Assembly (NCBI RefSeq): GCF_014635245.1
Contig: NZ_BMCP01000002.1
Location: 310,001-374,000, forward strand
Source: Agaricicola taiwanensis
GTDB lineage: Bacteria > Pseudomonadota > Alphaproteobacteria > Rhizobiales > Methylopilaceae
DNA: 64,000 nucleotides
Reading direction: 5' to 3'
The notes beneath the pieces were generated by a model, which was given only the letters and a program-made list of their open reading frames with translations, was not told the origin of the DNA and ran no database searches. The position numbers and the translations under genes are program-made. Below are positions 16,841-25,588 of the stretch, one piece after another (positions within the stretch are counted from its first letter, which is position 1; every line of letters starts with the position of its first letter).

Positions 16841-17770
16841 TCATAAAGAGGCGCCAGCTATGGCTGACTGGCTTGATCGGCTGGAAAAGCCATGAGCAAC
16901 GTCGATAAAGGCTTGCATCGGGTTGGACGGTGTTTCGGCTACCCAGGCCAGGGCGAGATCGACCAGCGCGGGGATCTGATTAAGGGGGCTGAAGATGATC
17001 TCAGGGTGGGAGGTACGGGAGGCCCATTCAGGCAGGATCGCGATCCCGACACCGGCCGCGACCATGGTGAGGATCGAATAGGTGTGCTGCGCTTCAAACA
17101 CCACCCGCGGCTTGAATCCTGCGCGATTACAATAGCCCGCCACGTGCTCCTGGAACTCCACCCCGGCAACCGGCGCGTAATGGATGAAATCCTCCTCGGC
17201 CAGATCTTCGAGCGTCACGGGCAGGCAACCCGCAAGTCTGTGCTCGCGCGGTATGGCTGCGACCACGCCTTCGGACGCCAGCACCAAGGTTGCCAGCCGT
17301 CGCGTGTGGACGGGTAGCCGGAGCAGTCCGAAGTCGAGCTGGCCGGTAAGAAGATCGGGGATCTGGCCCGCTGTTTCTCTGTAGGTCGGAGCAACGAAGA
17401 TGTCGGGGCGGGCCTTGTTGAACGTCCGGATCAGCCAGGGCAGCACCTCGAACGAGGCGGCAGGAGTGAAGCCGACCCGCAGATGGCCGCCGCCGCCATC
17501 GGCGATCAGGCGTGTCGACGCCACAGCCTCCTCGACCTGAGCCAAGGTATATTTGGCTCGTTCAAGGAAATGGGCTCCAGCCGCCGTGAGCTTGACCGAG
17601 CGCGTCGTCCGATCCAGCAGCCTCGCGCCCAATCGCTCTTCGAGCTGGCGAACCTGGGCGCTGAGATGTGGTTGGGCCATTCCGAGTTTCTCGGCAGCGC
17701 GTCGGAAGTGAAGCTCTTCCGCGACGGTGGCGAAGATTCGGAGATCGCGCGTTCCGATCGTCTTATTCAT
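16841..17770 (-). CDS. LysR-family transcriptional regulator of the PotABCD-type operon (inferred)
   Basis: A 309-residue LysR-type regulator. An N-terminal winged helix-turn-helix (RIFATVAEELHFRRAAEKLG, then QPHLSAQVRQLEERLGARLL) is followed by a co-inducer domain (LRVGFTPAASFEVLPWLIR). The start is ATG 17770 with AGG about 8 bases upstream; a GTG two codons earlier is the alternative. It is divergent from the seven-gene ABC transporter operon beginning at 17886, with a perfect palindrome in between, so control of that operon by the compound transported is the simplest reading. Confidence 0.88.
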   Translation of the reverse strand: MNKTIGTRDLRIFATVAEELHFRRAAEKLGMAQPHLSAQVRQLEERLGARLLDRTTRSVKLTAAGAHFLERAKYTLAQVEEAVASTRLIADGGGGHLRVGFTPAASFEVLPWLIRTFNKARPDIFVAPTYRETAGQIPDLLTGQLDFGLLRLPVHTRRLATLVLASEGVVAAIPREHRLAGCLPVTLEDLAEEDFIHYAPVAGVEFQEHVAGYCNRAGFKPRVVFEAQHTYSILTMVAAGVGIAILPEWASRTSHPEIIFSPLNQIPALVDLALAWVAETPSNPMQAFIDVAHGFSSRSSQSAIAGASL

Positions 17771-17784
17771 ACACACACCTGGAT

Positions 17785-17885: not shown

Positions 17886-18992
17886 ATGGATAGCGTCAAC
17901 GGTAATCGCGCAGTGAATGTACCGGCTGTGTCCTTCCAGCATGTGAGCCGTCGGTTCGGCTCCGTCACGGCAGTCGATGACGTGACGATCGATGTCGCCC
18001 CTGGAGAGTTTCTGTCGCTTGTTGGGCCCTCCGGGTCGGGAAAGACGACCCTCCTCATGATGCTCGCCGGATTCGAGCAGCCCAGCGCAGGACGCCTTGC
18101 CGTGAGCGGGCGCGATGTCACCGATCTTGCGCCGAACCACCGCAATATTGGCATGGTCTTTCAGAAATACGCGCTGTTTCCCCACCGCACCGTCGCGGAC
18201 AACATCGCGTTTCCCCTGCGCATGCGAGGCATTGGCCGGAGCGAGCGGGAGCAACGGGTCGCCGAGGTGCTCGCCATGGTCAAGCTCGATGGCTATGGCC
18301 AGCGCATGCCCGCCCAGCTGTCCGGGGGACAGCAGCAGCGCGTCGCTCTGGCGCGAGCCATCGTGTTCGAACCGCCGGTTATCCTCATGGATGAACCGCT
18401 GGGTGCGCTCGACAAGAAGCTGCGCCAGCATATGCAGATCGAAATAAAGGAACTGCAGGCGCGTCTGAAGGCGACAGTGATCTATGTGACGCACGATCAG
18501 GAAGAAGCGCTGACGATGTCCGATCGTGTGGCGATCCTCGATCATGGCAAGCTGGTGCAGAGTGGCGGCCCCCGCGAGCTCTATGAAGCACCTGCGACAG
18601 CATTCGTGGCGGATTTTCTCGGCGACATGAATTTCCTGCCTGCCGAAATCACCGGCATGGACGAACGGGGCATCGAGGTCACAGTCGGGGGCCGCAGGGT
18701 TCCGGTTGCAACGTCAGGCTGCTGGAAAGACAAGGGTGCCGTCAGGCTGGCCGTCCGCCCGGAACATGTCACCGTTTTACCCGGACCCGCCGGCCAGGGG
18801 CTGTCGGGCATGGTCGACCGGCTGGTGTTCCAGGGATCGAACCTGACGATCTTGGTTTCCGTGGACCGCGTGGGCCAGCTTCGCGCCCAGGTCGAAGCGC
18901 AGTCGCCGCTGGCCTCCCTGGCAACTGGCGATCCCGTTGCCATCACCTGGGCACCAGAACGCGCGCATCTGTTTCCGCGGGCCGGGTCATGA
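17886..18992 (+). CDS. ABC transporter ATP-binding protein, PotA type
   Basis: A 368-residue ATPase of a spermidine/putrescine-type importer. Walker A is GPSGSGKTT, the signature [15 protein letters not shown], Walker [14 protein letters not shown] and the H-loop VTHDQEEAL are all intact. A C-terminal TOBE-like domain starts near residue 265 ([11 protein letters not shown]). It powers the permeases encoded next, whose gene overlaps this one by four bases (ATGA). As in other Pot/Fbp-type clusters the cargo may be a polyamine, an amino-acid derivative or another small cation. Confidence 0.92.
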
Positions 18993-19900
18993 GCGCGCTT
19001 ACCTCCGCCGATATCGGGCAGGACAGGTCCGCCAGGCCGGGAACGGCCGATGCTTCGGAAGGCCGTGGTCGTTTCGGCAGGGTAGCGTCGCTGTTGCTCA
19101 TCGCTCCCCTGGGCCTGCTGCTCGCGGCGGTGTTTTTTCTGCCGATCGTCAATTTTCTATCGCGCAGCTTCATTGAGCCACAACTGACGCTTTCACATTA
19201 CGCCGAGCTCTTCGGCGAGCCGCTCTATCTGCGCATCCTCCTGCGGACCATGTGGATTGCTTTGGCTACCACCGCACTGACACTCGTTCTGGGCTATCCC
19301 GTCGCCCTGCTGATGACCCGCATCAACGGCGTTGCGGCAGCCGTGGTGAGCCTGTGTGTCATCATTCCGCTTTGGACCTCGGTCCTTGTGCGTTCCTACG
19401 CCTGGATCGTGCTGTTGCAGCGCAACGGGCTCGTCAATCAGTCGCTCCAGCACCTGGGGATCATTGATCAGCCGCTGACGCTGCTCCATACCGACGGCGC
19501 GGTGCTCGTCGCCATGACACAGGTACTCCTGCCGTTCATGGTGCTGCCCGTCTATGCAACCCTCCGTAACATCCCGCCCGAGCTGACTCGGGCGGCGCGC
19601 AATCTGGGCGCCGGACGGCTGCGCGCCTTCCTCGCCGTGACCTTGCCACTCAGTTTGCCGGGAGCCGCCGCGGGAGCCGTGATGATCTTCGTCCTGGCGC
19701 TCGGTTTCTACATCACGCCGGCCCTGGTCGGCGGGCCGCGTACATTGATGATCGCCACCCTGATCTCGCAACAGGCAACCGAGCTGTCCAACTGGCCTCT
19801 CGCTGCGGCGCTGTCCTTTGTCCTGCTCGTGCTGTCGCTGGGCGTGACCATGGCTTTCAAGCGCCTGCTCGGCGTCGATCGGATGGTGCATCATGGCTAG
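18989..19900 (+). CDS. ABC transporter permease, PotB type
   Basis: A 303-residue inner-membrane permease. After a polar 30-residue N-terminus, six hydrophobic segments are visible. The EAA loop contacting the ATPase appears as ELTRAARNLGAGRLRAFLAVTLPL. It pairs with the following PotC-type permease. The gene overlaps both neighbours (4 bases upstream, 8 downstream), so the three transport genes are tightly coupled. Confidence 0.9.
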   Translation: MSALTSADIGQDRSARPGTADASEGRGRFGRVASLLLIAPLGLLLAAVFFLPIVNFLSRSFIEPQLTLSHYAELFGEPLYLRILLRTMWIALATTALTLVLGYPVALLMTRINGVAAAVVSLCVIIPLWTSVLVRSYAWIVLLQRNGLVNQSLQHLGIIDQPLTLLHTDGAVLVAMTQVLLPFMVLPVYATLRNIPPELTRAARNLGAGRLRAFLAVTLPLSLPGAAAGAVMIFVLALGFYITPALVGGPRTLMIATLISQQATELSNWPLAAALSFVLLVLSLGVTMAFKRLLGVDRMVHHG

Positions 19901-20705
19901 CAGCGTAATGCGGTGGCTCGAGCGTTCAACCACAGCCGTCGCGGTGGGGCTTATCCTTGCCTTCCTTATCGTGCCGACCCTGCTCGTCATTCCCATGTCG
20001 GTGAGCCCGACGTCCTATCTGCGCTTTCCGCCGACGGGCATCTCGTTTCACTGGTACAGCGCCTACTTCAGCGATCAGGAGTGGATCGCGGCCACATTGT
20101 TCTCGTTGAAAATCGCAGGTTTGACCACGGTCGCGTCAACGATCGTCGGCGTCATGGCGGCCGTGGCGCTCGTGCGGGGCAGGGTTCCCGGACGCGAAAC
20201 CATACAGGCCCTGATCCTCGCGCCGCTGATCGTTCCGCATATTGTCGTGGCCATCGCGCTTTATCTGCAGTTCGCGCCATTGCGCCTCGTCGGGACCACA
20301 ACGGGTTTCGTGCTCGCCCATACCGTCCTGGCCGTTCCCTACGTTGTTCTGATCGTCTCAGCGGCACTCACACGCCTGGATCAGTCACTGGAGATGGCGG
20401 CCCTCAATCTCGGGGCGTCCCCGCTGCGGGCATTTCTTGAAATAACCGTGCCCTTGACGGCGCCTGCCATCGCCGCCGGGGCGGTCTTCGCCTTTCTTGC
20501 CTCGTTCGATGAAACCGTCGTGTCGTTCTTCTTGTCGGGTGTCGAGAACAAGACGCTGACGCGCAAGCTGTTCGAGGACATCGACTTCAATCTGTCACCG
20601 ATCATCGCAGCCATTTCCACGATCATCGTCGTGATGACGATCGCGATCATGGGCCTTGGCCAACTCGCCCGAAGGGCCACCATCCGGAAAACCGGAACTA
20701 ACTAG
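19893..20705 (+). CDS. ABC transporter permease, PotC type
   Basis: A 270-residue permease with six predicted membrane segments. The EAA loop reads LEMAALNLGASPLRAFLEITVPL. The family-typical FAFLASFDETVVSFFLSG is present near residue 205. It forms the heterodimeric channel with the preceding permease. The first residues overlap the preceding gene by eight bases. Confidence 0.9.
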   Translation: MASSVMRWLERSTTAVAVGLILAFLIVPTLLVIPMSVSPTSYLRFPPTGISFHWYSAYFSDQEWIAATLFSLKIAGLTTVASTIVGVMAAVALVRGRVPGRETIQALILAPLIVPHIVVAIALYLQFAPLRLVGTTTGFVLAHTVLAVPYVVLIVSAALTRLDQSLEMAALNLGASPLRAFLEITVPLTAPAIAAGAVFAFLASFDETVVSFFLSGVENKTLTRKLFEDIDFNLSPIIAAISTIIVVMTIAIMGLGQLARRATIRKTGTN

Positions 20706-20718
20706 GAGGAGAAGCGCT

Positions 20719-21792
20719 ATGGACTTCGCTGTTGCCAAGGGCCGCCGTCGAATGTTGCGCCTCACGACGCTGGCGATCGCCGCGCTCGCAGGCTTTGGCT
20801 CTGAGCCTGCTCTTTCCCAGGAGGGGACTGAACTGGTGATCGTGACCTCGGGCGGGACCTTCGAGAAGGCCTTGCAGAAGAATTTCTACGAGGCCTTCAC
20901 GGCTGAAACAGGCATCAAGGTTCATCCGGTGTCGGCGAGCTATGCCGAGCAGTGGGCCAAGGCACGCGCGATGGCTGAATCGGGGCGAACCGAATGGGAT
21001 ATCGTGACCGTCGGCATCGGTGAGGACGCCGCCAACCGGGACCTGCTTGAAAAGCTCGATTGCGCCGGCATGCCCAACGTAAAGACCCAGGCGATCGACG
21101 GCGCCTGCCGGGAGTACACGCTCCTTCGCACGATCGGCGGAACGGTCCTTGCCTATAACACCGACACCTTCAAGGAGAAGGCACCGGCAAGCTGGGCCGA
21201 CTTCTGGGACGTTGCCGCATTTCCGGGCCCCCGCGCCATGCCCAACTACGGCGCGCCCTATGTGTCGCTCGCGGTTGCCTTGCTGGCCGACGGCGCACCC
21301 TTGAGCGAGGTTCGAGACCGTGCGCTCGATGTGCCCCGTGCCTTCGCCAAGCTCGACAAAGTCAAACCGGATGTCTCGATCTGGTGGAAGACCGGAGACC
21401 AGAGCCAGCAGGCCTTCCGCAACGGCGAGGTCGTCATGTCGATGATGTGGTCCGGCCGGGCCATGCAGCTGCAGCAGGCGGGACAACCCATCGAGGTCGT
21501 CTGGAACAATGCATCCGCGGAACTCAGCTCCTGGGGCATCCTCAAAAATGCCCCCCACAAAGAAGCGGCGAAAGCATTTCTGAATTTCTTCATGAGCCGC
21601 CCGGAGGCCCATCTCGCCTTCTCCTCCCAGGTCTTCTGGGACACGGCCAATCGTGCGGCTCTCGACAAGACCTACGGCTCGTCCGAGACCTTCATGAAGC
21701 GGTTCGAGAACATGATCACCTACGATTCTGCCTGGCTTGCGGAAAACCGCAGCGAGATCGTCACCCGCTGGAACGACTGGATCAGCCGCTAA
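20719..21792 (+). CDS. PotD-type periplasmic substrate-binding protein
   Basis: A 357-residue extracellular solute-binding protein. The start ATG 20719 has AGGAGG upstream; an upstream in-frame start would overlap potC. The signal region starts with a basic RRRMLRLTTLAIAALAG and ends near ALSQ. The mature part begins with LVIVTSGGTFEKALQ and includes WDIVTVGIGEDAANRDLLEKLD, typical of polyamine-like binding proteins. It sits third after the permeases, so order is A-B-C-D as in E. coli potABCD. The ligand is not deducible. Confidence 0.9.
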   Translation: MDFAVAKGRRRMLRLTTLAIAALAGFGSEPALSQEGTELVIVTSGGTFEKALQKNFYEAFTAETGIKVHPVSASYAEQWAKARAMAESGRTEWDIVTVGIGEDAANRDLLEKLDCAGMPNVKTQAIDGACREYTLLRTIGGTVLAYNTDTFKEKAPASWADFWDVAAFPGPRAMPNYGAPYVSLAVALLADGAPLSEVRDRALDVPRAFAKLDKVKPDVSIWWKTGDQSQQAFRNGEVVMSMMWSGRAMQLQQAGQPIEVVWNNASAELSSWGILKNAPHKEAAKAFLNFFMSRPEAHLAFSSQVFWDTANRAALDKTYGSSETFMKRFENMITYDSAWLAENRSEIVTRWNDWISR

Positions 21793-21808
21793 TCTAGGGA
21801 GAGCCGTG

Positions 21809-23212
21809 ATGTTGAACCTGGCCTCGGCAACCGGTGTTGCCCGAGAAGGATCAAGTGCGATCCTCGGCGACTGGATTGCCGGATTCAATCTGGCCGATGT
21901 CCCTGACGACGTCGTGGAGCAGGCCAAATCCTGCATCGTCGACAGTGTCGGTTGTGTCGTGGCGGGCACTTCGGCGCGCCCGTCACGCCTCCTGCTCGAT
22001 ACTCTTGAGCGTTACGGCGGGGTGGGGGACGTCGCGATACCTGCCACTGGCAAACGCCTCGGCACGCTCCCGGCCGCCTATTTCATGGCCCAATCGGCGA
22101 ACGCGCTGGATTTCGACGATTCGTTTCGCAGTGGCGCACCGTGCCATCCCGGCGCAACCATCATTCCGCCAGCGCTGGCGCTGGCCCAGGCGGTGCCATG
22201 TGACGGCGCCGAGCTTCTGCGCGCCGTGATCCTCGGCTATGAGATCTCGTTGAGGATCGGCCGCGCCGTACAGCCGACGCCGGAGCGAAAGGCCGAGGTC
22301 TATGGCTTCTCGACCTGGCAGATCTTTGGCGCCATGGCTGCGGCGGCGAGCCTGCTGCGTCTTCCCCGCGCCGCGATCATCGACGCGTTCGGCATCGCTG
22401 CCGTTCATGCCCCGGTGCCGAGCCTGCGCAAGCTCGGGACGGAAGACCCCAGACCCTATCCCTGGACCAAGAATACTTATGGATCAGCCAGCGAAGGCGG
22501 CGTCCTTGCCGCCTTGCTCGCTTCCGACGGCTATGTCGGCAGCCGCACGATCTTCGATGGTGATCGCGGCTTCTGGATCATGTCCGGCAGCGATCGTTTC
22601 CGGCCGGAGCTTTTGACCGAAGGGCTCGGCACCACCTGGCTCCTGCGCGAGGTCGGGTTCAAGTTTTACGGCTGCTGCCGGTGGACCCACACCATGCTTG
22701 ACGCCCTGCGCGACTGTGGGGCCGGTGTTGATCCGGATGCCATAGAGACCATCGAGGTTGCTGGCTTCAAGGAGTTGTTCGGCCTGGGCGGAGAGGCGCC
22801 GACGTCGATCGTCGATGCCCAGTTCAACCCTCAGCACCTCGCGGCTCTCGAACTGCTCGGGAGGTCGCCGGAACGCGGCCTCGCCGACGAAGATCTTGTC
22901 GATCCCCGGGTGTCCCGGCTGCGCAGCAAGATCACGATGATACACGATCCCAGTGCTGATGAAGCCTACTACGCGTCCGGTGCTCTTCCAGTTCGTGTCA
23001 CGTTGCGGCTGAGCGACGGCACCACGCGGGCTGCCGCGCGCCAGGACCCTTCCGGAAGCGCCGCGGCCGGGAACTCACCCGAAGCTATCGACGCCAAGTT
23101 CCTTCGTCTCACCGGCGGCGTTCTGGGGGGCGATCGCGCGCGCTCTTCCCTGTCGACCCTGCGCAACCTTGAGAACCATTCCATCGCTGAGCTGATCGCT
23201 CAGATCGCTTGA
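21809..23212 (+). CDS. MmgE/PrpD family protein
   Basis: A 467-residue protein of the MmgE/PrpD superfamily, which includes 2-methylcitrate dehydratase, cis-aconitate decarboxylase and iminodisuccinate epimerase. The start ATG 21809 has AGGGAG upstream. The N-terminal SCIVDSVGCVVAGTSARPS and ALDFDDSFRSGAPCHPG carry conserved family positions. In this operon of a charged-solute importer, a dipeptidase-like protein and an FAD amine oxidoreductase, an isomerase or lyase acting on an N-substituted amino acid is more likely than a methylcitrate role. That is inference from context. Confidence 0.85.
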   Translation: MLNLASATGVAREGSSAILGDWIAGFNLADVPDDVVEQAKSCIVDSVGCVVAGTSARPSRLLLDTLERYGGVGDVAIPATGKRLGTLPAAYFMAQSANALDFDDSFRSGAPCHPGATIIPPALALAQAVPCDGAELLRAVILGYEISLRIGRAVQPTPERKAEVYGFSTWQIFGAMAAAASLLRLPRAAIIDAFGIAAVHAPVPSLRKLGTEDPRPYPWTKNTYGSASEGGVLAALLASDGYVGSRTIFDGDRGFWIMSGSDRFRPELLTEGLGTTWLLREVGFKFYGCCRWTHTMLDALRDCGAGVDPDAIETIEVAGFKELFGLGGEAPTSIVDAQFNPQHLAALELLGRSPERGLADEDLVDPRVSRLRSKITMIHDPSADEAYYASGALPVRVTLRLSDGTTRAAARQDPSGSAAAGNSPEAIDAKFLRLTGGVLGGDRARSSLSTLRNLENHSIAELIAQIA

Positions 23213-23260: not shown

Positions 23261-24235
23261 ATGGCCCAGTCAAACCTGCATGAATCAGCCATCGTCTTTG
23301 ACGGATTGATCGTATCGAAATGGGGACGGCCGGTTTTCGAGCACATGCGCGAAGGCGGATTGACCGCGGCCAATTGCACGGTCTGCATCTGGGAGGGGAC
23401 CCGCGACACTCTTCTCAACATCGCGCAATGGAAGCGATGGTTCGATGAGCATGGCGATATCATCATGCCCTGCCGCAGCGTCGCGGACATCCGCAGGGCC
23501 AAGGAACTGGGCAAGGTGGGGATCGTGCTCGGCTGGCAGAATTCCTCGGGGATAGAGGATCGCCTCGATCTCCTGCCCATCTTCAAGGACCTGGGTGTCG
23601 GCTTTATCCAGCTCACCTACAACACGCAGAACTATGTCGCGAGCGGCTGCTGGGAAAAGCATGATGGCGGGTTGTCCCAGTTCGGCGAGCGCTTCATCTC
23701 CGAAATGAACCGTGTCGGCATCGTCGTCGATCTCTCGCACGTCGGCGCCCGCAGCGCCTCCGACGCGATCCGGGTCGCAGCCAAGCCCTGTGCCTATACG
23801 CATATCTGTCCGGCCGGTCTCTTCGACCACCCGCGCAACAAGACAGATGCCCAGCTGCGCGAGATGATCGATAGCGGCGGTTTCGTCGGCATTGCCGCCT
23901 ATGCGCCGTTCATGCGCAACAAGGGTGACTCAGGCTTGGATGATGTCGTGGACCTCTTCGACTATGTCATCAACGTCTGCGGTGAGGAGAACGTCGGTAT
24001 CGGCACCGATTTCACGGAAGGCCAGGATGAAGCCTTCTTCAACTGGATCCGCCTCGACAAAGGCTATGGACAGCGCATCGTTCCAAGCCATGGGACAGCG
24101 CCGACCGTGAAGGGCTTTAATTCTCCCTCCAATTATCCCGCCCTCACAGCCGCCATGGAACGACGCTGGCCGGAGCGCCGCGTCCGCGCGATCCTGGGCG
24201 AGAACTGGTTGAACTTCCTGGAACGCGTTTGGTGA
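23261..24235 (+). CDS. Divergent M19 (membrane dipeptidase-like) protein
   Basis: A 324-residue TIM-barrel protein of the peptidase M19/renal dipeptidase family. It shows LTYNTQNYVASGCWEKHDGG, IVVDLSHVGARSASDAI, YTHICPAGLFDHPRNKTD and NVGIGTDFTEG, which match the later metal and active-site blocks. The N-terminal metal motif, normally DGHND-like (His-x-Asp), reads FDGLIVSKW here, and the bridging Glu motif reads LGWQNSS. So canonical dipeptidase chemistry is doubtful. The gene sits 48 bases after the MmgE/PrpD gene and 21 before the FAD oxidoreductase. Confidence 0.8.
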   Translation: MAQSNLHESAIVFDGLIVSKWGRPVFEHMREGGLTAANCTVCIWEGTRDTLLNIAQWKRWFDEHGDIIMPCRSVADIRRAKELGKVGIVLGWQNSSGIEDRLDLLPIFKDLGVGFIQLTYNTQNYVASGCWEKHDGGLSQFGERFISEMNRVGIVVDLSHVGARSASDAIRVAAKPCAYTHICPAGLFDHPRNKTDAQLREMIDSGGFVGIAAYAPFMRNKGDSGLDDVVDLFDYVINVCGEENVGIGTDFTEGQDEAFFNWIRLDKGYGQRIVPSHGTAPTVKGFNSPSNYPALTAAMERRWPERRVRAILGENWLNFLERVW

Positions 24236-24256: not shown

Positions 24257-25588
24257 ATGCCGGGTCCAGCCGTCGATTCCGTCGAACCATCTAAGAACCT
24301 GCCAGCCCATGCGGATGTCGTCGTCATTGGCGGAGGCATCATAGGCACCTCAACCGCCCTGGAGCTCGTCGAGCGGGGGCTCTCGGTGGTCCTGTGTGAG
24401 AAGGGCATCATTGCCGGAGAGCAATCGAGCCGTAACTGGGGATGGGTGCGCCTGTCCCGGCGAGATCCGCGCGAGATCGAGCTCATGGCAGCTTCAATCC
24501 GGATCTGGGAGGGGCTCGCGGAGCGGGTCGGTCACGACGTGGGATATCGCCAGTGCGGCATCCTCGTTCCATTCCATTCCAAAGCCTTTCGCGCGGAGAA
24601 TGAGGCCTGGCTGGAGCATATTCGGGACACACAGCACCGCGTCGCGGCGATCAGCTCTGACCAGGTACGCCAGCTCGTGCCCGACATGCGGCTCGATTTC
24701 GACGGCGCGCTCTATTCACCGACGGATGGACGGGCCGAGCCGCAGAGGGTCGCGCCCGCGATCGCCCGGGCCGCGCAGGCGAGGGGCGCGACAATTCTCA
24801 CCGGCTGCGCCGTCCGTCGCATCGAAACCAGTGCGGGTGCCGTCTCCGGTGTCATCACCGAACGAGGACGGATCGGAACCAGTGCCGTTGTCGTCGCGGG
24901 TGGGGCCTGGTCGCGATTGCTCCTGCGCGACATCGGAGTGACGCTGCCGCAATTGAAGGTCCTCAATTCAGTGCTACGTACGGAACCGGTGCCGGATGGG
25001 CCGGAGATCACGGTCCGCGGTCCCCGCTTTTCGGTGCGGCGGCGGGCCGATGGCGGCTATACCGTTTCGACGCTGGCCTCCAATGTCTATGATCTGACAC
25101 CGGACAGCTTCCGATTTCTTCATCAGTTCATCCCCGCCCTGAAGATGGAATGGTCCGGCCTCAAGCCGCGGATCGGGCGCCGCTTCCTTGAGGAATGGCG
25201 GGACTTGCGCCGTCGCGATCCTGGTGAGTTATCCCCCTACGAGCGCACCCGGATTCTCGATCCGGAGCCAAACGTCGCCATGACCGACCAAGCGCTCGCC
25301 CGTCTTGCCGAGGCCTTCCCGGCCTTTCGGCAGGCGAAGGTGGCGCAGCGGTGGGCTGGCCTCATCGATGTCACGCCTGATGCGGTGCCAGTGATCTCGA
25401 CCGTCGACAGCCATCCCGGTTTGGTGGTTGCCACCGGCTTCAGCGGGCACGGCTTCGGGCTTGGCCCGGGAGCGGGCCGAATGGCGGCTGATCTCGTGAC
25501 CGCTGTTCCGCCGATGGTTGATCCCACGGCCTTCCGGCTGTCACGCTTCTCCGATGGCTCGGAGATTGTACCGATGACCGGCGTTTGA
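24257..25588 (+). CDS. DadA/glycine oxidase-type FAD-dependent oxidoreductase
   Basis: A 443-residue flavoprotein of the DAO family. The FAD dinucleotide-binding motif VVVIGGGIIGTSTALELVERG is near residue 20 and the C-terminal FAD contact ATGFSGHGFGLGPGAGRMAADL is intact. Such enzymes oxidise amino acids or N-alkyl amino acids to imines. It ends the operon begun at 17886 and likely performs the oxidative step on the imported compound. The stop is 48 bases from the tRNA gene on the other strand. Confidence 0.88.
   Translation: MPGPAVDSVEPSKNLPAHADVVVIGGGIIGTSTALELVERGLSVVLCEKGIIAGEQSSRNWGWVRLSRRDPREIELMAASIRIWEGLAERVGHDVGYRQCGILVPFHSKAFRAENEAWLEHIRDTQHRVAAISSDQVRQLVPDMRLDFDGALYSPTDGRAEPQRVAPAIARAAQARGATILTGCAVRRIETSAGAVSGVITERGRIGTSAVVVAGGAWSRLLLRDIGVTLPQLKVLNSVLRTEPVPDGPEITVRGPRFSVRRRADGGYTVSTLASNVYDLTPDSFRFLHQFIPALKMEWSGLKPRIGRRFLEEWRDLRRRDPGELSPYERTRILDPEPNVAMTDQALARLAEAFPAFRQAKVAQRWAGLIDVTPDAVPVISTVDSHPGLVVATGFSGHGFGLGPGAGRMAADLVTAVPPMVDPTAFRLSRFSDGSEIVPMTGV

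Follow-up and report, generated by a model that had tools for sequence, protein, structure and literature searches.

M19 dipeptidase-like proteins without the alpha-metal motif form a separate, widespread subfamily that probably acts on modified amino acids

An M19 dipeptidase-like protein encoded by Agaricicola taiwanensis is a member of a separate and widespread M19 subfamily, the type of the solved structure 2i5g, which probably carries out another kind of chemistry, with modified amino acids as its substrates. The gene lies in a window of 64,000 nucleotides (contig NZ_BMCP01000002.1, positions 310,001 to 374,000), the whole stretch of DNA analysed here, and its coordinates are given together with those of its neighbours and active-site codons in Table 1. 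In M19 dipeptidases, the alpha metal is bound by a His-x-Asp motif and a bridging Glu, and the beta metal by this same Glu together with two His; an Asp on the last strand serves to activate water, and the substrate is held by an Arg. The window protein has lost all residues specific to the alpha metal and kept the remainder except the Glu. According to the best reading, to which we assign a probability of about 0.5, the alpha site was dismantled as a unit, so that the enzyme would hold a single metal, or no metal, at the beta site and act on an N-substituted amino acid and not on a peptide. The trait, treated in a previous sequence-only reading as belonging to a single odd protein, marks out a large subfamily for which a solved structure exists.

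Table 1. Genes of the apparent operon, its divergent regulator, and active-site codons of the M19-like gene (window coordinates).
Feature	Position	Strand	Basis or nearest match
LysR-type regulator, divergent from the operon	16841..17776	-	translation; clusters with LysR-annotated neighbours
ABC transporter ATPase, PotA subfamily	17886..18992	+	Pfam/NCBIfam
ABC permease	18989..19900	+	Pfam/NCBIfam
ABC permease	19893..20705	+	Pfam/NCBIfam
Solute-binding protein	20656..21792	+	nearest solved structure mannopine-binding protein 5l9s, E 1.5e-53
MmgE/PrpD protein; start likely later, near 21809	21737..23212	+	nearest structure IDS-epimerase 2hp0, E 1.9e-25
M19-like protein without alpha-metal motif	23261..24235	+	single 324-aa ORF
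L16-I17-V18 codons, in place of His-x-Asp	23306..23314	+	alignment
Gln93 codon, in place of bridging Glu	23537..23539	+	alignment
Tyr120 codon	23618..23620	+	alignment
His160 codon, beta-site ligand kept	23738..23740	+	block DLSH
His181 codon, beta-site ligand kept	23801..23803	+	block YTH
Arg192 codon, kept	23834..23836	+	alignment
Asp250 codon, catalytic Asp kept	24008..24010	+	block GTDF
FAD oxidoreductase, DAO family	24257..25588	+	nearest L-amino acid deaminase 5fjm, E 6e-70, then sarcosine oxidases

The stop-to-stop frame around the gene spans 326 aa, so no in-frame His-x-Asp is hidden upstream of it. Membership of the fold family was established with Pfam (Peptidase_M19, PF01244, 263.5 bits against a cut-off of 26), where the match starts at profile position 38 and thus leaves the N-terminal motif region of the profile unmatched; no NCBIfam model matched the protein. 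The closest solved structure in a PDB search was 2i5g (full length, E 2e-106), the other matches listed being dipeptidase-type chains at 1e-26 or weaker. Residues were assigned by alignment to the canonical M19 paralogue of the same genome (L001; motif DGHND, bridging block HIEGAE). Within residues 13-21 (FDGLIVSKW) the His-x-Asp is replaced by L16-I17-V18, and within residues 90-96 (LGWQNSS) the bridging Glu is replaced by Gln93, while the two beta-site His, the catalytic Asp and the substrate Arg are present, which bears out what had been noticed from the letters about both altered regions and the persistence of the later His and Asp blocks. AlphaFold2 was run on the window protein and one relative (P0002) and used for strand order only, the model of the window protein (mean pLDDT 54.4, pTM 0.60) being too poor for metal-site geometry. 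At this confidence, Gln93 was placed just after strand 89-92, His160 after 155-157, His181 within strand 178-182 and Asp250 after 245-247, which is the strand order expected of an M19 barrel.

The window protein was matched at E ≤ 1e-50 in 56 of 289 genomes of the class and in 43 of 299 genomes of the phylum; no relative was found in the viral contigs searched. An alignment of 94 rows, 93 of them distinct (the window gene being present twice, as q and L002), was assembled from sequences similar to the window gene and from the genomes of its relatives. The N-terminal His was missing from 77 rows, all of which carried Gln at position 93 (77/77, window gene counted twice), and all 75 other rows of this His-less type shared the replacement pattern of the window protein. 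Glu was found in all 17 remaining rows, 10 with His-x-Asp and 7 with His without the Asp, and His160, His181, Arg192 and Asp250 were present in every row. Tyr120, which we take to occupy the position of renal dipeptidase His152, was rejected as a diagnostic of the His-less type, as Tyr also occurs there in 7 of the 17 M19 rows that keep the Glu. The same residues recur in 2i5g and dozens of relatives, the frame is intact and the rest of the pocket is strictly conserved, so these alignments refute the notion of an ordinary dipeptidase whose motif disappeared through annotation, a frameshift or a sequencing artefact, or of a decaying gene, an explanation for which no support emerged and which we regard as hardly credible.

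A second sample, not selected by likeness to the window gene, came from 199 Pseudomonadota genomes in which M19 proteins were sought with nothing but the Pfam model; 72 of these genomes had a match. Split fragments were merged (G344:C3, two genes; G487:C1, one gene), three partial matches (G189:C13, G394:C102, G465:C6) were left unclassified, and 117 proteins were classified. His-x-Asp together with Glu was seen in 61 of them and the His-less pattern with Gln in 46, followed by 7 with His, another third residue and Glu, 2 PvdM-like proteins with Leu, and 1 His-less protein with Glu. The 46 His-less Gln proteins, one of which is the window's own, were spread over 37 of the 199 genomes and all kept Gln93, His160, His181, Arg192 and Asp250 (46/46), just as the bridging Glu was kept in all 61 His-x-Asp proteins. 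Conservation in the first alignment was tabulated after removal of near-copies (> 80% identity), which reduced 76 rows to 53, or to 50 without the outlying L150, L153 and L154. Further residues such as Asn94, Gln117, Gln123, Glu132 and Lys194 were conserved in the His-less type and not in canonical M19, which suggests that the pocket is under selection and the gene is not decaying. Among other variants, an M19 clade with N-terminal His and Glu (L120, L125, L126, L128, L130, L132, L152) has Cys, Gly or other residues for the motif Asp and is possibly an intermediate or a third type of metal site, and four M19 proteins (L238, L249, L250, L251) carry His-x-His for His-x-Asp, as in other amidohydrolases.

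In a quick maximum-likelihood tree, unrooted and with the motif columns left out, a 45-row branch holding both 2i5g and the window gene was recovered with 97% SH-aLRT, apart from the His-x-Asp M19; the His-x-Asp rows formed one side of a branch (99% SH-aLRT), as did the His-only rows (98%). The His-less rows need two changes on this tree, from long outlying rows (L150 twice, L153, L154), so the coupling of motif loss to the Glu-to-Gln exchange is perfect across the sequences yet reflects few evolutionary events. The window gene itself occurs in 1 of 18 genomes of its family (the genus being represented by its own genome alone) and was thus probably acquired horizontally.

The sequence-only reading was staked on no other His/Asp pair filling the vacated site. 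A check of conservation gave no family-wide replacement of this kind, while pointing to Glu45, Glu132 and Asp135 as possible substitutes. The upstream His7, found in 38/44 rows of clade A (the clade of the window gene and 2i5g), was rejected as a replacement ligand because it is rare in clade B (4/28 rows) and frequent on the canonical side (8/17), and because the window protein has no Asp at +2 from it. A scan for a displaced His-x-Asp yielded, for nine rows near 2i5g, a short stretch resembling His-Ala-Asp located nine residues upstream, and for one outlying row a His-Ala-His. Residue 38 separates the two clades, being Asn in 43/44 clade-A rows and His in 27/28 clade-B rows, while Glu45, Glu132, Asp135 and Lys194 are conserved in both. 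The protein could accordingly be pictured as a rebuilt two-metal hydrolase, in which Glu45 (after strand 2), Glu132 and Asp135 would replace the His-x-Asp and the Glu, and amide cleavage would persist. This picture draws on the conservation of the three residues in clades A and B (70/72, 71/72 and 72/72, respectively), on Glu45 and Glu132 not being conserved in canonical M19, and on the second strand predicted at residues 42-43, just ahead of Glu45, in the low-confidence model; in the broader Pfam-model sample, however, Glu45 was kept in 36/46 and Glu132 in 40/46 of the His-less Gln proteins, versus 46/46 for Gln93 and both His, and we consider such a rebuilt site unlikely.

Loss of the alpha site as a whole remains the preferred reading. 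The motif loss is conserved and coupled to the Glu-to-Gln exchange, and the beta-site His pair, Asp and Arg are invariant, which is the picture that a one-metal or non-peptidase site would present; the mononuclear or non-peptidase chemistry that had been proposed for the protein is thus partly borne out. Gln for Glu is unusual, and there may be no metal at all. In mechanistic terms, the loss of His-x-Asp together with the Glu-to-Gln exchange would have dismantled the alpha-metal site in one unit, one metal or none would sit at Gln93/His160/His181 of a TIM-barrel enzyme, Asp250 would activate water or serve as a general base, and Arg192 would grip the substrate carboxylate. The substrate would be an opine-like, N-alkyl or imino amino acid taken up from outside, or else an intermediate arising when the neighbouring flavoprotein oxidises such a compound. 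An N-substituted amino acid is probable, since several relatives and the window gene's own operon appear to handle such compounds.

The ABC transporter genes, the MmgE/PrpD gene, the M19-like gene and the DAO gene, which starts 21 bp downstream of the latter, apparently form one operon. For the binding protein, spermidine/putrescine binders followed far behind 5l9s in the PDB search (3e-17). The earlier suggestion that the substrate enters through a PotABCD-type importer is plausible, although the binder resembles the opine/GABA type and not PotD, and many relatives lie in other pathways. With a binder closest to a mannopine-binding protein, an MmgE/PrpD protein resembling IDS-epimerase and an amino-acid-oxidase-like flavoprotein in the operon, the substrate is more likely to be an opine or imino acid than a polyamine or dipeptide. 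The genes at 20656-23212 suggest opine or imino-diacid catabolism and not polyamine uptake; the simplest assumption is that the operon serves a nutrient of one of these two kinds, though no single gene proves so. MmgE/PrpD was matched at E ≤ 1e-60 in 1 of 289 class genomes, the window's own, and no conserved operon was demonstrable with it; the nearest relatives of the M19-like gene (L065, L066, L072, L073, L003) do not share its operon.

Some relatives adjoin genes for the oxidation of dimethylglycine, sarcosine or N-methyl-tryptophan, being found beside dgcAB, soxBDAG or solA. For instance, the relative in an Azospirillum record lies beside soxBDAG, that in a Methylobacterium record occurs with solA and DUF5943, and that in a Sphaerotilus record with glyA, DUF5943 and an NADH:flavin oxidoreductase. 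In clade A (n = 35 neighbourhoods), DUF5943 was found in 15, DgcA in 11 and branched-chain-type ABC permeases in 9, while clade B (n = 18) showed a protein of about 574 aa in 12 (e.g., L101:4043-5812), beside or near the M19-like gene and with no Pfam, NCBIfam or convincing PDB match, and an aldehyde dehydrogenase in 8. The gene-order listing omits L061, L090, L095, L104 and L144, whose M19 ORF was missed by the gene caller; the enrichment counts, for which all frames were searched, include them. Any amine-oxidation gene occurred in 22/53 neighbourhoods of the His-less type versus 2/14 of canonical M19 (p 0.069) and any DAO-type gene in 11/53 versus 2/14 (p 0.72), neither difference being significant. 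The small DUF5943-V4R protein near the 15 clade-A genes (e.g., L082:8741-9283, minus strand) is seen in dgc operons and also where DgcA is missing (L061, L076, L083, L158). As an obligate partner it was rejected, since of the 12 genomes searched for it 8 gave no match, among them that of A. taiwanensis; neither it nor dgcAB adjoins the window gene, which lies outside the dgc arrangement.

Flavoprotein neighbours recur, and two further explanations build on this association. In the first, which we hold to be rather unlikely, the barrel would be a non-catalytic or metal-free helper that binds a substrate or product and hands it over to the neighbouring flavoprotein. PvdM, an M19 homologue with a damaged site, is described in the accessible part of one report as aiding the binding of ferribactin to the tyrosinase PvdP (PMC13119372), and two PvdM-like proteins of our set likewise have an incomplete site, which shows that an M19 barrel need not be fully equipped to be of use. 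Many relatives have no oxidase gene nearby, however, and His160, His181, Arg192 and Asp250 are kept in 46/46 proteins, unlike in the PvdM-like rows, which suggests retained chemistry. In the second, a speculative proposal that we think improbable, imine (Schiff-base or carbinolamine) hydrolases or N-alkyl-amino-acid enzymes would have evolved from dipeptidases: the flavoprotein next door would form an imine by oxidation of an amino acid whose amine is secondary or tertiary (opine, dimethylglycine, sarcosine, N-methyl-tryptophan), and the barrel would take this molecule as a pseudo-dipeptide and add water across its C=N with one metal or none. If this were true, over a third of the sampled Pseudomonadota M19 'dipeptidases' would be wrongly named.

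Whatever their reaction, genes of the His-less Gln type (46/117 proteins, 37/199 genomes) are annotated as 'dipeptidase' by default although residues of the two-metal site are missing from their products, and some belong to operons that serve amine nutrients, among them glycine betaine/dimethylglycine, sarcosine and opine-like compounds. From the literature, the excerpts consulted give the gene order pepD-hypothetical-dgcAB-fixAB in Vibrio natriegens and P. aeruginosa (PMC12093977), report a 'membrane dipeptidase, dgc operon' induced by root exudates along with dgcA (PMC8079746), and list PP_0308 'dipeptidase' with dgcA in the RoxR regulon (PMC10963909). In the partial texts returned by a literature search, no role was found assigned to 2i5g-type genes in amine-nutrient operons and no subfamily function was reported; a search for accounts of M19 metal-site loss, partly swamped by general dipeptidase papers and likewise limited to partial texts, found none. 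These proteins raise the question of which role a dipeptidase barrel takes on once one of its metal sites is gone.

Comparison with known systems places the window protein closest to 2i5g, an 'amidohydrolase' which we take to be PA5396 of P. aeruginosa, encoded ahead of dgcAB and predicted to be a dipeptidase. Both share L-x-[IV], Gln, Tyr and the retained His, His, Arg and Asp, and fall in the same subfamily on the tree; 2i5g-like genes adjoin DUF5943 and dgcAB-fixAB, whereas the neighbours of the window gene encode an opine-type ABC transporter, MmgE/PrpD and a DAO flavoprotein. With M19 proper (renal dipeptidase 1itq, GliJ 5lwz, 3id7, 3fdg) it has in common the PF01244 fold, the beta-site His pair, the Arg and the Asp, but not the His-x-Asp and bridging Glu that define the two-metal site there. 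PvdM, presumably the structure 3b40, is an M19 homologue of pyoverdine maturation that has an incomplete metal site like the window protein and works with an oxidase. The PvdM-like proteins from pseudomonad-type genomes (L182:1444-2820, minus strand, which matches 3b40 at E 5.5e-219, and L184) lost a different part of the metal site: they keep the N-terminal His, have Leu for the Glu and Gln for His160, a pattern absent from the window protein, and so stand outside the Gln type. The amidohydrolase NagA, which deacetylates an amino sugar, keeps its carboxylate ligand, whereas the corresponding residue of the window protein is Gln, so that even its beta metal could be weakly bound or missing. 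In E. coli NagA the first-strand HxH is changed to QxN and the enzyme works with one metal, according to the part of the source consulted (PMC6016474), so this TIM-barrel hydrolase of a different family in the same superfamily, with its first-strand motif lost and one metal left, offers a precedent for the window protein.
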